Shown here: in pieces, positions 13,353-19,665 of the stretch | Numbering within the stretch: the stretch's first letter is position 1 | How the letters are laid out: the number at the start of each line of letters is the position of its first letter | Assembly (NCBI GenBank): GCA_026785975.1 | Contig: JAJAZB010000314.1 | Coordinates: forward strand, 1-32,310 | Source of the DNA: Cytophagaceae bacterium | GTDB lineage: Bacteria; Bacteroidota; Bacteroidia; Cytophagales; Spirosomataceae | Length of the DNA: 32,310 nt | Reading direction: 5' to 3' | Notes under the pieces: model-generated | The model's database searches: none | The model's input: only the letters and a program-made list of their open reading frames with translations | What the model was told of the DNA's origin: nothing | Program-made: the position numbers and the translations under genes

Positions 13353-16300
13353 TCAAACAACCTCTACTCTCACTTCCAATTGGTACTCATCCATGTCGAC
13401 GACTACGGCATCGTGGAGTTCGGGGAGGAAATTGAGGCTCAACGCCTGGGTTTCAGTGCAGATGTATTCGCGGTTGGCTTCGAGGGCGGTTTTCACTAAT
13501 TCTGCGGGCGTTTTTACCGAAATAGTAATTCGGTCGGTCACGTCAAAACCCTGATCCTTACGCACATTCTGAATCCGGTTGACGAAATCGCGGGCGATGC
13601 CTTCGTGGCGCAAATCGTCAGTGAGGGTTACGTCGAGGGCAACCGTCAATCCAGCTTCCTGGGCGGTTAAAAAACCGGGCAAATCCTCGCTCTGGATTTC
13701 AACGTCTTCAAGGTTAATTAGAAATTGGAAATTGGAAATTAGAAATTGACCATTCTTCTCCAATTCCGCAATGTCCGTGGCGGTCATGGCCTGAATGCCA
13801 TTGGCGACTTCCTTCATTTTCGGCCCGAATTTTGGCCCCAGGGTTTTAAAATTCGGCTTTACCTTTTTGTTCAAAATTCCCGAGGCGTCGTCCAGGTACT
13901 CAACGGCTTTTACGTTGACTTCGGCTTTAATCAGGTCTTCAACGCGAGCCAATTGGCGCTTCACATCAGCGTTGAGTACCGGAATCAGTACCCGCGAAAG
14001 TGGCTGCCGCACCTTGAGCCGGTTCACTTTACGGATCGAATGCACGAGCGACGAAACCCGTTGGGCTAAATCCATCGAAGCCTCCAGTTCGGGGTCGATG
14101 TGTTCGCTTTCGGCCGGGTGCAGGGTCGTTAGGTGGACGGACTCGTGGCGCAACGGCGAGCGCATGGCTTTGGCCTTGCCCCGAATGTGATTAGTCATGT
14201 TGCGGTACAGCCAATCGGCGTAAAACGGCGCAATGGGCGACATCAACTGGGAAACCGTCACCAGGCAATGTTGCAGGGTTTCGTACCCGGCGCGTTTGTC
14301 TTCCGTCAGGCCGCCCCGCCAGAAACGCCGCCTCGACAAGCGCAAATACCAGTTGGAAAGCTGATCGGTCACAAAATCCTGAATGGCCCGGCCCGCTTTG
14401 GTCACGTCGTAATCTGCGTAAAACGCATCGACATCTTTAATCAGCGAGTTCAATTTCGACAAAATCCAGCGGTCGAGTTCGGGGAGTTTTTCGTGGGGGA
14501 GGCGGTCAAACTCATTGAGTTCGTAACCGTCGACGTTGGCATAGAGCGCAAAAAACGCGTAGGTGTTGGTGAGGGTACCAAAAAACTTATTGCGCACTTC
14601 CGTCACGCCGTCGAGGTTAAACCGCAGGTTGTCCCAGGGGTTGGCGTTGGTGGCCATGTACCAGCGCACCGGGTCGGCCCCGTACTGATCCAGGGTTTTA
14701 AACGGGTCGGCCGCGTTGCCCAGGCGCTTCGACATTTTGTTGCCGTTTTTGTCGAGTACCAAGCCCGTCGACAACACGTTTTTAAACGCAACCGAATCAT
14801 TTAACAACGTGGAAAGGGCGTGGAGGGTAAAGAACCAACCCCGGGTTTGATCGACGCCCTCCGAGATGAAATCGGCGGGGTAGCTTTTTTCAAAAATCTC
14901 CTTGTTTTCAAACGGGTAGTGCCATTGCGCGTACGGCATCGCGCCCGAATCGAACCAAACGTCAATGAGGTCGAGTTCGCGAGTCATGACTTTCCCGGAG
15001 GGTGAAACCAGATAGATTTCATCGACGTAGGGGCGGTGGAGGTCAAGGGCCTCACCCCCCGGCCCCCTCTCCGATGGAGAGGGGGTGCGCTGATGGAGGA
15101 GTTTTTCGGCTTCGGCCTGGATGCTGTTTTTTACCCGTTCCGTTTCATTCAGGACTTCTTCGTTTGTAAACCGAATGACGTCAAACCCGGCTTCTTTCAA
15201 ATACTCGGTTCGAGCCTGATCGTACTGCGGATAATCTGCCGTTTGATGAATTTCTCCATCCACTTCCACAACTAGACGAGCGGGTATCGAAACAAAATCG
15301 GCGATGTATACGCCAATGGCGTACTGACGCCGGAATTTCACCCCTAAGTTGTTATTGCGTACGACCTGCCATAGCGTATCTTCAGCTTTAGTCGGTGCTT
15401 TCCGATTCGAGCGTCCATATTCCTTCAGAATCCGCCAAGCATCTTCGTTAGCCGTAAACACATTATCCACCAAGGCATTACCCCCCTCTCCATCGGAGAA
15501 GGGCCGGGGGTGAGGCTTTGTGCGGCTACCCACGATTTTCGCCAGAAACATCTCATTCGCCGCCCGTTGCTCCTCGCTCAGTGCGTCGTCTTTCAGCGCG
15601 TGTTTGATGCTGCTTTCCAGTTCAGCAATCGAGCCGATGCACACTTCCTCGCCATCCTCACTGCGCCAGATGGGTAGTGGCGTTCCCCAGTAGCGACTCC
15701 GGCTCAGGTTCCAGTCTACGAGGTTTTCGAGCCAGTTGCCAAACCGCCCCGTACCCGTGCTTTCGGGCTTCCAGTTGATGGTTTTGTTGAGCGCAATCAG
15801 CTTGTCCTTTACCGCCGTGGTGCGGATAAACCAACTGTCGAGCGGGTAGTAGAGCACCGGCTTGTCGGTGCGCCAGCAGTGCGGGTACGGGTGATCGAAT
15901 TTTTGGACGTTAAACGCCTTATTTTCCGTCTTCAATTTGATGCCGATGCGCTCATCGACCGAGAGGTATTTCTCCCGCGCCTGCTTTACCCGTTCGGCTT
16001 CTTTTTCCTCGTCCGACAGGTATTGTTCTTTCACAAATTCCCCGGCGAAGTCGGTGATCTCCGCCACAAACCGGCCCCGCTTGTCCACGATGGGCACCTC
16101 CTTACCAGTTTCGTCCTTCACCATGATCGACGGAATGCCGGTTTGCCGGGCCACCCGGAAGTCATCCGCCCCGAAGGTGGGCGAGGTGTGAACGACGCCG
16201 GTACCGTCCTCGGTCGTGACAAAATCGCCGGAAATCACCCGGAAAGCAGGCAGAGTGCCCGGCCGGATTTCGGGCGTGACGTAAGGCAATAACTGCTCGT

Positions 16301-17264
16301 ACTCGACGCCTTCGAGGTGTGCGCCTTTGATATTCATCACTACGGTCCAGGGAATGAGTTTGTCGCCGTCGTGGTAGGTTGTGAAATCGGCGTCCTGGCC
16401 TTTTTCGCTGAAATACGCCAACACGCGGTCTTTGGCCAGCACCACGTTGACGGGCAGGTAGGTGTAGGGGTTCAGGGTTTTGACCAACGCGTAGTCAATG
16501 TTTTTGCCCACGGTCAGGGCCGAGTTGGCGGGTAACGTCCAGGGCGTGGTCGTCCAGGCCAGGATATACACGTAATTGGTGCTGGCGGCGTCGAAGAGGT
16601 AGGCCGATTTGCCGGTGAGTTTCACCTTAAACTGCGCCACGATGCTCACGTCCTTGATTTCCTTGTACGTGCCGGGCATATTCAACTCGTGGGAACTCAA
16701 GCCCGTACCCGCCGCCGGAGAGTACGGCTGAATGGTGTAACCCTTGTAAAGTAAACCCTTGTTGTACAGTTCCTTGAGCAGGTACCACAGCGTTTCGATG
16801 TACTCGTTTTCATAGGTGACGTACGGGTGCTCAAGGTCCACCCAGTAGCCCATACGCTCGGTCAGGGTGTTCCACTGGTCGGTAAATTTCATGACCGCTT
16901 CCCGGCACTTCTGGTTGTAGTCGGCGATCGAAATAGTTTTGCCAATATCTTCCTTCGTGATGCCCAACTCCTTTTCCACCTGCAATTCGATGGGCAGGCC
17001 GTGGGTATCCCAACCGCCTTTGCGCTTCACCTGATTGCCTTTGAGGGTTTGATAGCGGCAAAAAACGTCCTTGATGGTCCGGGCCATGACGTGGTGAATC
17101 CCCGGCGAGCCATTGGCCGAAGGCGGGCCTTCGTAAAACGTAAAGCTGGGCTGGCCCTCCCGCTGGCTAACCGACGCTTCAAAAATGCCATTCTCTTGCC
17201 AAAACGCGAGAATTTCATCGGCCACGGCGGCGTAATCGAGGGCTTTGTATTCGTTAAAGTTCAT
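13353..17264 (-). CDS. ileS: Isoleucyl-tRNA synthetase, interrupted in frame by a DUF559 nuclease-domain insert
   Basis: MNFNEYKALDYAAVADEILAFWQENGIFEASVSQREGQPSFTFYEGPPSANGSPGIHHVMARTIKDVFCRYQTLKG; NKMSKRLGN; LDLIDVWFDSGAMPYAQ; uninterrupted 1303-codon ORF. Confidence 0.96.
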   Translation of the reverse strand: MNFNEYKALDYAAVADEILAFWQENGIFEASVSQREGQPSFTFYEGPPSANGSPGIHHVMARTIKDVFCRYQTLKGNQVKRKGGWDTHGLPIELQVEKELGITKEDIGKTISIADYNQKCREAVMKFTDQWNTLTERMGYWVDLEHPYVTYENEYIETLWYLLKELYNKGLLYKGYTIQPYSPAAGTGLSSHELNMPGTYKEIKDVSIVAQFKVKLTGKSAYLFDAASTNYVYILAWTTTPWTLPANSALTVGKNIDYALVKTLNPYTYLPVNVVLAKDRVLAYFSEKGQDADFTTYHDGDKLIPWTVVMNIKGAHLEGVEYEQLLPYVTPEIRPGTLPAFRVISGDFVTTEDGTGVVHTSPTFGADDFRVARQTGIPSIMVKDETGKEVPIVDKRGRFVAEITDFAGEFVKEQYLSDEEKEAERVKQAREKYLSVDERIGIKLKTENKAFNVQKFDHPYPHCWRTDKPVLYYPLDSWFIRTTAVKDKLIALNKTINWKPESTGTGRFGNWLENLVDWNLSRSRYWGTPLPIWRSEDGEEVCIGSIAELESSIKHALKDDALSEEQRAANEMFLAKIVGSRTKPHPRPFSDGEGGNALVDNVFTANEDAWRILKEYGRSNRKAPTKAEDTLWQVVRNNNLGVKFRRQYAIGVYIADFVSIPARLVVEVDGEIHQTADYPQYDQARTEYLKEAGFDVIRFTNEEVLNETERVKNSIQAEAEKLLHQRTPSPSERGPGGEALDLHRPYVDEIYLVSPSGKVMTRELDLIDVWFDSGAMPYAQWHYPFENKEIFEKSYPADFISEGVDQTRGWFFTLHALSTLLNDSVAFKNVLSTGLVLDKNGNKMSKRLGNAADPFKTLDQYGADPVRWYMATNANPWDNLRFNLDGVTEVRNKFFGTLTNTYAFFALYANVDGYELNEFDRLPHEKLPELDRWILSKLNSLIKDVDAFYADYDVTKAGRAIQDFVTDQLSNWYLRLSRRRFWRGGLTEDKRAGYETLQHCLVTVSQLMSPIAPFYADWLYRNMTNHIRGKAKAMRSPLRHESVHLTTLHPAESEHIDPELEASMDLAQRVSSLVHSIRKVNRLKVRQPLSRVLIPVLNADVKRQLARVEDLIKAEVNVKAVEYLDDASGILNKKVKPNFKTLGPKFGPKMKEVANGIQAMTATDIAELEKNGQFLISNFQFLINLEDVEIQSEDLPGFLTAQEAGLTVALDVTLTDDLRHEGIARDFVNRIQNVRKDQGFDVTDRITISVKTPAELVKTALEANREYICTETQALSLNFLPELHDAVVVDMDEYQLEVRVEVV
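13716..13749 (-). repeat. In-frame AT-rich 7-8-bp word array inside ileS (encodes QFLISNFQFLIN)
   Basis: aattagaaattggaaattggaaattagaaattga. Confidence 0.8.
15049..15516 (-). mobile_element. 468-bp palindrome-ended insert in ileS encoding a DUF559/Vsr-like endonuclease domain
   Basis: Inverted ends gcctcaccccccggccccctctccgatggagaggggg / cccccctctccatcggagaagggccgggggtgaggc; encoded KAPTKAEDTLWQVVRNNNLGVKFRRQYAIGVYIADFVSIPARLVVEVDGEIHQTADYPQYDQARTEYLKEAGFDVIRFTNEEVL. Confidence 0.85.
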
Positions 17265-19535: not shown

Positions 19536-19665
19536 AGGACTATCGCTCACGGGGCCTGGAGCCTCCCCCCCGGCCCCTCTCCGGTGGAGAGGGGTGACTC
19601 AGAAACCTGGATTACCTCCCCTCTCCACCGGAGAGGGGCCGGGGGTGAGGCTAAGCGAAAGTCCT
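19536..19665. repeat. ORF-less palindromic element sharing its ends with the ileS DUF559 insert
   Basis: Core 19561-19651 (91 bp): gcctcccccccggcccctctccggtggagagggg ... cccctctccaccggagaggggccgggggtgaggc; outer AGGACTATCGCT / AGCGAAAGTCCT. Confidence 0.85.

Follow-up and report, generated by a model that had tools for sequence, protein, structure and literature searches.

An in-frame DUF559 nuclease element with hairpin ends in ileS of a Cytophagaceae bacterium, with recurrent counterparts in other conserved genes

The ileS gene of a Cytophagaceae bacterium contains, in frame, a block that encodes a DUF559 nuclease domain and carries hairpin ends, and similar blocks occupy fixed, recurrent sites in more than 20 unrelated housekeeping proteins. 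The in-frame position, the hairpin ends and the recurrence of the sites are shown directly. The block is probably a selfish, homing-type element that does not splice and resides in an always-expressed essential gene; cleavage, homing and the unspliced protein are inferred.

The window analyzed here is the whole stretch of 32,310 nucleotides. Its isoleucyl-tRNA synthetase gene (ileS, 13353 to 17264, minus strand, 1303 amino acids, identified by TIGR00392) is present as a single copy in the assembly and reads from 17264 to 13353 without a stop codon over its whole length. The inserted element lies at 15049 to 15516 (minus strand), between ...FLAKIVGSRTK and LDLHRPYVDE. An earlier note, made from the sequence alone, had claimed an uninterrupted ileS frame, a 468-bp in-frame block with inverted palindromic ends at this position, a complete-looking DUF559 domain and the absence of an evident self-splicing domain. 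All four claims held, and the only families that Pfam and NCBIfam detect in the insert are nucleases. Its length of exactly 156 codons held as well with a small correction, namely that the frame is offset from the element ends and the in-frame codons run from 15515 to 15051. When exactly 468 nt are excised in silico, the ileS flanks join in frame as ...FLAKIVGSRTNLDLHRPYVDE..., and comparison with the IleRS of relatives places the conserved motif DLHRPYVDE (15018 to 15044, minus strand) directly downstream of the insertion point.

The arms of the insert, at 15057 to 15085 and 15482 to 15510, are inverted, 29 nt long and 90% complementary, and they extend outward to 15049 and 15516; fold analysis showed that each end is able to form its own hairpin. 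The left terminal inverted repeat with its hairpin (15482 to 15516, minus strand) is translated as PHPRPFSDGEGG and the right one (15049 to 15085, minus strand), defined by inverted-repeat and fold analysis, as TPSPSERGPGGEA. The hairpin motif occurs seven times in the window if up to three mismatches are allowed, compared to 0.01 expected occurrences. A REPIN-like doublet, in which the same hairpin ends are inverted around a short spacer without DUF559, is located in an intergenic region at 19562 to 19652 (plus strand), and its DNA fold has a z score of −9.3. Within the insert, the DUF559 domain (15111 to 15425, minus strand) is detected by Pfam with E = 3.4e-32 for the insert alone and 1.1e-30 for the whole protein; with 111 bits it passes the curated DUF559 (PF04480) cut-off of 20.6, and the catalytic residues are present (invariant E45, D73, E84, D86, G87, H90 and D99, insert numbering). 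The host protein is still a clear IleRS (TIGR00392, 964 bits), and no second IleRS was found in the assembly of this organism. The presence of a DUF559 block with hairpin ends in frame inside the essential ileS gene is confirmed; that the insert-bearing IleRS is produced unspliced is inferred, without protein data.

The DUF559 domain is under strong purifying selection, with dN/dS values of 0.04-0.13 in resolvable pairs, similar to those of the hosts, while protein-level constraint on the ends and linkers is looser. The residues E, D, ExDG, H and D are invariant over 56 DUF559 sequences. An AlphaFold2 model calculated with a 56-sequence alignment is confident (pLDDT 85), with the first 13 residues flexible; it was used instead of a single-sequence model, which was discarded (pLDDT 44). 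Foldseek returned as best solved structures 3hrl, a DUF559 protein, and I-Bth0305I (PDB 3r3p; E 2e-4, TM 0.80-0.82 by target length), with Vsr lower in the list, and the DUF559 profile alone matches I-Bth0305I at E 1.5e-5. By profile and predicted fold, the nearest characterized relative of the domain is this homing endonuclease, the type member of the EDxHD homing endonucleases (PMC3943268), and the criterion of EDxHD homology and fold is met. DUF559 is without the extra DNA-binding modules of I-Bth0305I, leaving its specificity unaccounted for, and this counts against the homing reading. A DUF559 protein of Caulobacter, VsrA, triggers a DNA damage response in vivo (PMC12907096).

The distribution of such inserts was determined in several samples. 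With only the insert as query, a search of 223 genomes from the family gave many matches inside open frames of 500-1,650 amino acids. A profile (A1) built from 23 embedded DUF559 domains was used on a class sample of 395 genomes and found matches at E ≤ 1e-22 in 147 of them, the best ones mostly in long frames. Similar DUF559 inserts are also present in other classes of the phylum, and a scan of a contig collection with one protein as query had an insert in a Prevotella UDP-glucose dehydrogenase as its sole find. After removal of duplicates, the locus set contained 143 distinct DUF559 loci, 124 of which lie in ORFs of at least 240 amino acids and are termed fused. Altogether, 109 of the 124 fused loci are embedded in-frame inserts with host sequence on both sides (88 genomes, 32 families, 21 host groups). 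The hosts include LeuRS, MetH, IleRS, acetyl-CoA synthetase (Acs), MnmE, RecG, SiaA-like phosphatases, methylmalonyl-CoA mutase (MCM) and IcmF, 3-oxoacid CoA-transferase (between the A and B halves), UvrA, an AddB-like protein, RecJ, MutS, TsaB, TsaD, HsdR, UDP-glucose dehydrogenase and others. Reading of the translations is the only basis for some of these names, among them UvrA, AddB, UDP-glucose dehydrogenase and CoA-transferase, and for that of a ValRS with a DUF559 insert on one contig of a viral collection. Several carriers of equivalent inserts are single-contig genomes (G193, G332, G356, G535 and G803); therefore, the inserts are not an assembly effect.

Individual loci show further arrangements. 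At four loci (L052, L053, L054 and L060) the element is located between the A and B halves of 3-oxoacid CoA-transferase, which are thereby read as one chain. A DUF559 element is located immediately upstream of the HisF N-terminus, in frame, in three genomes (L197, L198 and L199), and these cases may represent either a fusion or a separate ORF that is read through. One MetH (L111, G124 C65:83000-89000) has a single 1,645-aa frame with two DUF559 elements that differ in subfamily and end type.

Within each host, inserts repeatedly occupy the same place, and a conserved motif usually follows within a few codons. IleRS is entered before DLHRPYVDE, the site of the window's insert, and at a second site before YPADFIAEGVDQTRGW; LeuRS is entered before FTTRPDTIFG and before MPGWAGSSWY. 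The position of the ValRS insert, ahead of TTRPxTIFG, is homologous to that of the first LeuRS site. In MetH, sites are located before ILLATVKGDVHDIGKN, before GAFALTTGIG and before MVSGTITDASGRTLSG, and a MetH site before ATVKGDVHDIGKN is in use across classes. The sites in Acs, SiaA-like proteins and RecJ precede YWCTADIGWITGH, ADCTGHGVPGAFMS and IDYYIPDRYKEGYG, respectively. Conserved downstream DNA is what a homing nuclease would need and a variable linker is what the host protein would tolerate, and either may set this pattern. Target-site duplication was not resolved, since global alignments of filled and empty linkers broke up; no insert junction was readable because the linker is too variable. 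At the usual leuS site of one genome, the leuS frame is broken after the DUF559 element (L218, G279 C1:373900-376400). Another IleRS carries a different insertion of ~100 residues, unrelated to DUF559, near the linker that holds the window's insert (L097, G161 C10:23500-28500).

Most relatives have an IleRS linker without the insert, and in an IleRS tree of 46 relatives the filled and empty states require at least six changes. The IleRS proteins, as far as sampled, differ by ~1% between G041 (filled) and G123 (empty) and by ~2% between G143 (filled) and G151 (empty). Filled and empty alleles of one site coexist in close relatives, which meets a criterion for homing endonucleases, and these empty sister alleles are shown directly. 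In a DUF559 tree of 142 rows, the domains cluster by host gene (45 changes compared to 102.6 when shuffled; the minimum possible is 30). IleRS accounts for four changes, two of them forced by starred branches, and LeuRS for 13, four of them forced, supporting several separate entries of the element into IleRS and LeuRS. The large starred clade of this tree comprises 109 rows, 105 of them in long host frames; among its other four rows is the leuS locus L218 mentioned above, which is out of frame downstream. Several clades match a taxonomic family (the f5, f11 and f42 LeuRS clades), showing that vertical inheritance of many same-site inserts within a family is real.

Movement is indicated by pairs selected from many. 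The synonymous divergence of the insert is 0.13 [0.04-0.21] compared to 0.37 [0.33-0.43] for the host in a UvrA pair, and 0.31 [0.18-0.46] compared to 0.63 [0.56-0.70] in a RecJ pair; in most other pairs, the insert is not more conserved than the host. Furthermore, two SiaA-like paralogues of G229 with ~35% identity carry same-site inserts that are 94% identical in nucleotide sequence, so that near-identical copies in paralogues are shown as well. Horizontal or intragenomic movement is supported by the UvrA, RecJ and SiaA pairs and by the separate entries noted above; for many other pairs, the pattern is one of vertical inheritance.

Terminal inverted repeats scoring at least 14 and above shuffles were detected at 96 of the 124 fused loci, and the inverted ends of the remaining 28 are weak or unrecognized. 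As a control, DUF559 domains from the viral-contig search were scored with slightly shorter flanks than the fused loci, and 4 of 78 reached a score of 14. Typically, an end has a CCYCACCCC-like foot and, after it, CCCCTCTCC-N-GGAGAGGGG or some variant of this. The end sequence CCCCCGGCCCCTCTCC is found 47 times in the genome of the window with at most one mismatch, compared to 0 for the reversed control, and these copies are mostly arranged in ~92-bp doublets. That doublets and inserts have their ends in common is shown directly, and in 30 genomes of the family the doublet type tracks the insert end type: CTCTCC matches number 42 in the window's genome and 199 in G041, with 0 and 1 CTCCCC matches, respectively; in G193, where the insert ends are of the CTCCCC type, there are 49 CTCCCC and 29 CTCTCC matches. 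Where such inserts are absent, most genomes contain 0-2 end matches, an exception being G040, which has doublets and no listed insert. Several carriers have scarcely more end copies than those of the insert itself, and some have few or no dispersed doublets. The doublets meet the REPIN criterion of a dispersed, inverted pair of REP hairpins.

The left end of the window's copy has zero stop codons across the three forward frames, and all three frames of the left end are used among the loci (27, 16 and 5). It encodes Pro/Ser/Gly-rich peptides such as that of the window's insert or LTPGPSPMERG. Of 88 embedded elements, 67 have an in-frame ATG, GTG or TTG (ATG in 33) after the left end and ahead of the domain core; internal initiation of the nuclease may be feasible, although not as a general rule.

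The element was compared with known systems. It shares with the EDxHD homing endonucleases the order of the conserved E, D, H and D residues and, by inference, the homing of a nuclease gene into a conserved gene of the host. I-Bth0305I has been described as a phage enzyme that is encoded in an intron and has long additional DNA-binding regions, whereas the insert is a compact in-frame domain of a host protein with palindromic ends and without a detected intron or intein. Like Rickettsia palindromic elements (PMC10969869), it is palindromic, keeps the reading frame of the many unrelated protein genes in which it lies and is presumably translated there. Those elements are ~150 bp in length (PMC10969869) and are not known to carry a nuclease, whereas the window's insert has 468 bp and contains DUF559; DUF559 elements in general measure ~410-700 bp, with a conserved nuclease and recurrent sites. 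The comparison with Rickettsia palindromic elements rests on size and content alone. REPINs of the REP-RAYT system likewise have two inverted REP-like hairpins around a spacer and are dispersed in the genome. However, REPINs typically lie outside genes and are associated with a Y1 transposase, whereas in this genome the ends are missing from the examined flanks of the Y1 loci, and the gene enclosed by the insert is DUF559. Inteins with homing endonucleases are also in frame, site-recurrent, patchy in distribution and nuclease-encoding, and they reside in essential conserved proteins; in contrast to them, the insert has no splicing domain and is found in variable linkers beside conserved motifs, inteins being located within motifs. 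The closest published parallel found is the ShiLan domain of phage methylases, which is actively homing, open in the host frame and without a detectable intein or intron (PMC11855218). ShiLan differs in having an HNH nuclease out of frame and in occurring in phages, whereas the insert has DUF559 in the host frame, bacterial housekeeping genes as hosts and hairpin ends. The element resembles a homing endonuclease in its inferred working and a Rickettsia palindromic element in its look. The defining feature of each of four systems is unmet: it falls outside inteins, introns, Rickettsia palindromic elements and RAYT-REP because it has no splicing domain, no catalytic RNA, neither the size nor the nuclease-free make-up of the Rickettsia elements, and no Y1-flanking ends.

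The element consists of two inverted, REP-like hairpin ends around a Vsr/EDxHD-like DUF559 gene, placed in a variable linker of the host. We propose that the host ribosome makes the nuclease within the host protein and perhaps, in addition, through internal initiation. The nuclease would then nick or cut empty alleles near the DNA coding for the conserved motif, and repair would copy the element, ends included, into the cut allele. Because the ends are stop-free in three frames and rich in Pro, Ser and Gly, they are proposed to act as flexible protein linkers that keep the frame open, so that the insert would loop out and the host enzyme would stay active. Short doublets without the nuclease may be reduced, non-autonomous derivatives. 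Cutting, copying, host tolerance and the origin of the doublets are inferred, and there are no cleavage, homing or protein data. The earlier note had suggested that the block is a palindromic mobile element which encodes a nuclease and is maintained unspliced in a translated gene, to be checked against empty sites in related IleRS genes, the same ends elsewhere and an assembly error. The suggestion is supported, the unspliced IleRS remaining an inference: empty sites are present in close relatives, the ends recur throughout the genome and also flank other DUF559 inserts, and like inserts in single-contig genomes exclude an assembly error as a general explanation. The fixed sites in more than 20 proteins, the fold similarity to a homing endonuclease and the REPIN-like relatives went beyond that note.

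Other explanations were considered. The hairpin ends could be the true mobile unit, REPINs moved by RAYT/Y1 or another transposase, with DUF559 as a passenger or accessory. The dispersal of the same ends as ~92-bp doublets and the presence of RAYT-like Y1 genes in the window's genome speak for this; however, these ends flank none of the genome's Y1 loci, purifying selection on DUF559 is strong, repeated sites in the same gene are not expected of REPIN transposition, and several insert-bearing genomes are almost without doublets, making this explanation unlikely. Movement driven by RAYT was rejected, as the Y1_Tnp loci of the genome had no palindromes in the flanks examined (up to 1.5 kb). Even less credible is a stably inherited, functional accessory of the host enzymes, for example a tethered repair nuclease, which would not be a parasite. 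Purifying selection on DUF559 and vertical clades at the family level would fit such a role, but not the more than 20 unrelated hosts, the palindromic ends, sister species that differ in having the insert, inserts less diverged than their host and near-identical copies in two paralogues.

Removal of the element with the help of its inverted ends, whether through splicing of the RNA or of the protein or through ribosome bypassing, is also very unlikely. The ends could pair, and a review of homing endonucleases links invasion of conserved sites to self-splicing hosts (PMC3943268). However, the insert has no Hint or intein domain, and all embedded cases keep the host frame without stops, which removal would not demand. 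A search for introns in Rfam gave no intron match at E ≤ 1, the sole match being a chance-level IRES (E 0.76), and intron or intein identity was rejected in the absence of a signature in Rfam, Pfam or NCBIfam. An assembly or binning artefact could be suspected, since the window comes from an assembly of 523 contigs that often end at these repeats; equivalents in single-contig genomes and many independent assemblies, together with selection on the coding sequence, all but exclude it.

Returning to the homing-type reading, we regard the element as a new variant of homing elements, which would deserve a class of its own if the mode without splicing is confirmed. A bolder reading describes a hitherto undescribed selfish class: splicing-free homing nucleases that colonize essential genes as permanently translated loop-outs, with hairpin DNA ends that serve as protein linkers in any frame, and that also give rise to the REPIN-like repeats of the host. 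Taken jointly, these statements are as likely to fail as to hold. The open-access literature searched yielded no description that links DUF559 to palindromes, in-frame insertion or homing, which is not proof of novelty. Homing nucleases are generally viewed as needing introns or inteins for entry into conserved genes; the element appears to enter them by linker insertion instead, which would leave many tRNA synthetases, methionine synthases and DNA-repair enzymes of the phylum as nuclease fusions. This reading offers a function for DUF559, a source for one class of REP-like repeats and a list of positions at which essential enzymes naturally tolerate an insertion, and it may yield compact new site-specific nucleases.

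The genome of the window also contains a stand-alone DUF559 ORF (L002, G000 C404, DUF559 at 703-1020), which has a palindrome of the class AACCCCCAACCCCCTAAAGGGGG, unlike the ends of the window's insert, on both sides. Inside ileS, near its 3' end, a short tandem AATTTC/TAATTTCC-like stretch (QFLISNFQFLIN) is located at 13695-13754, in a region that is variable among relatives.
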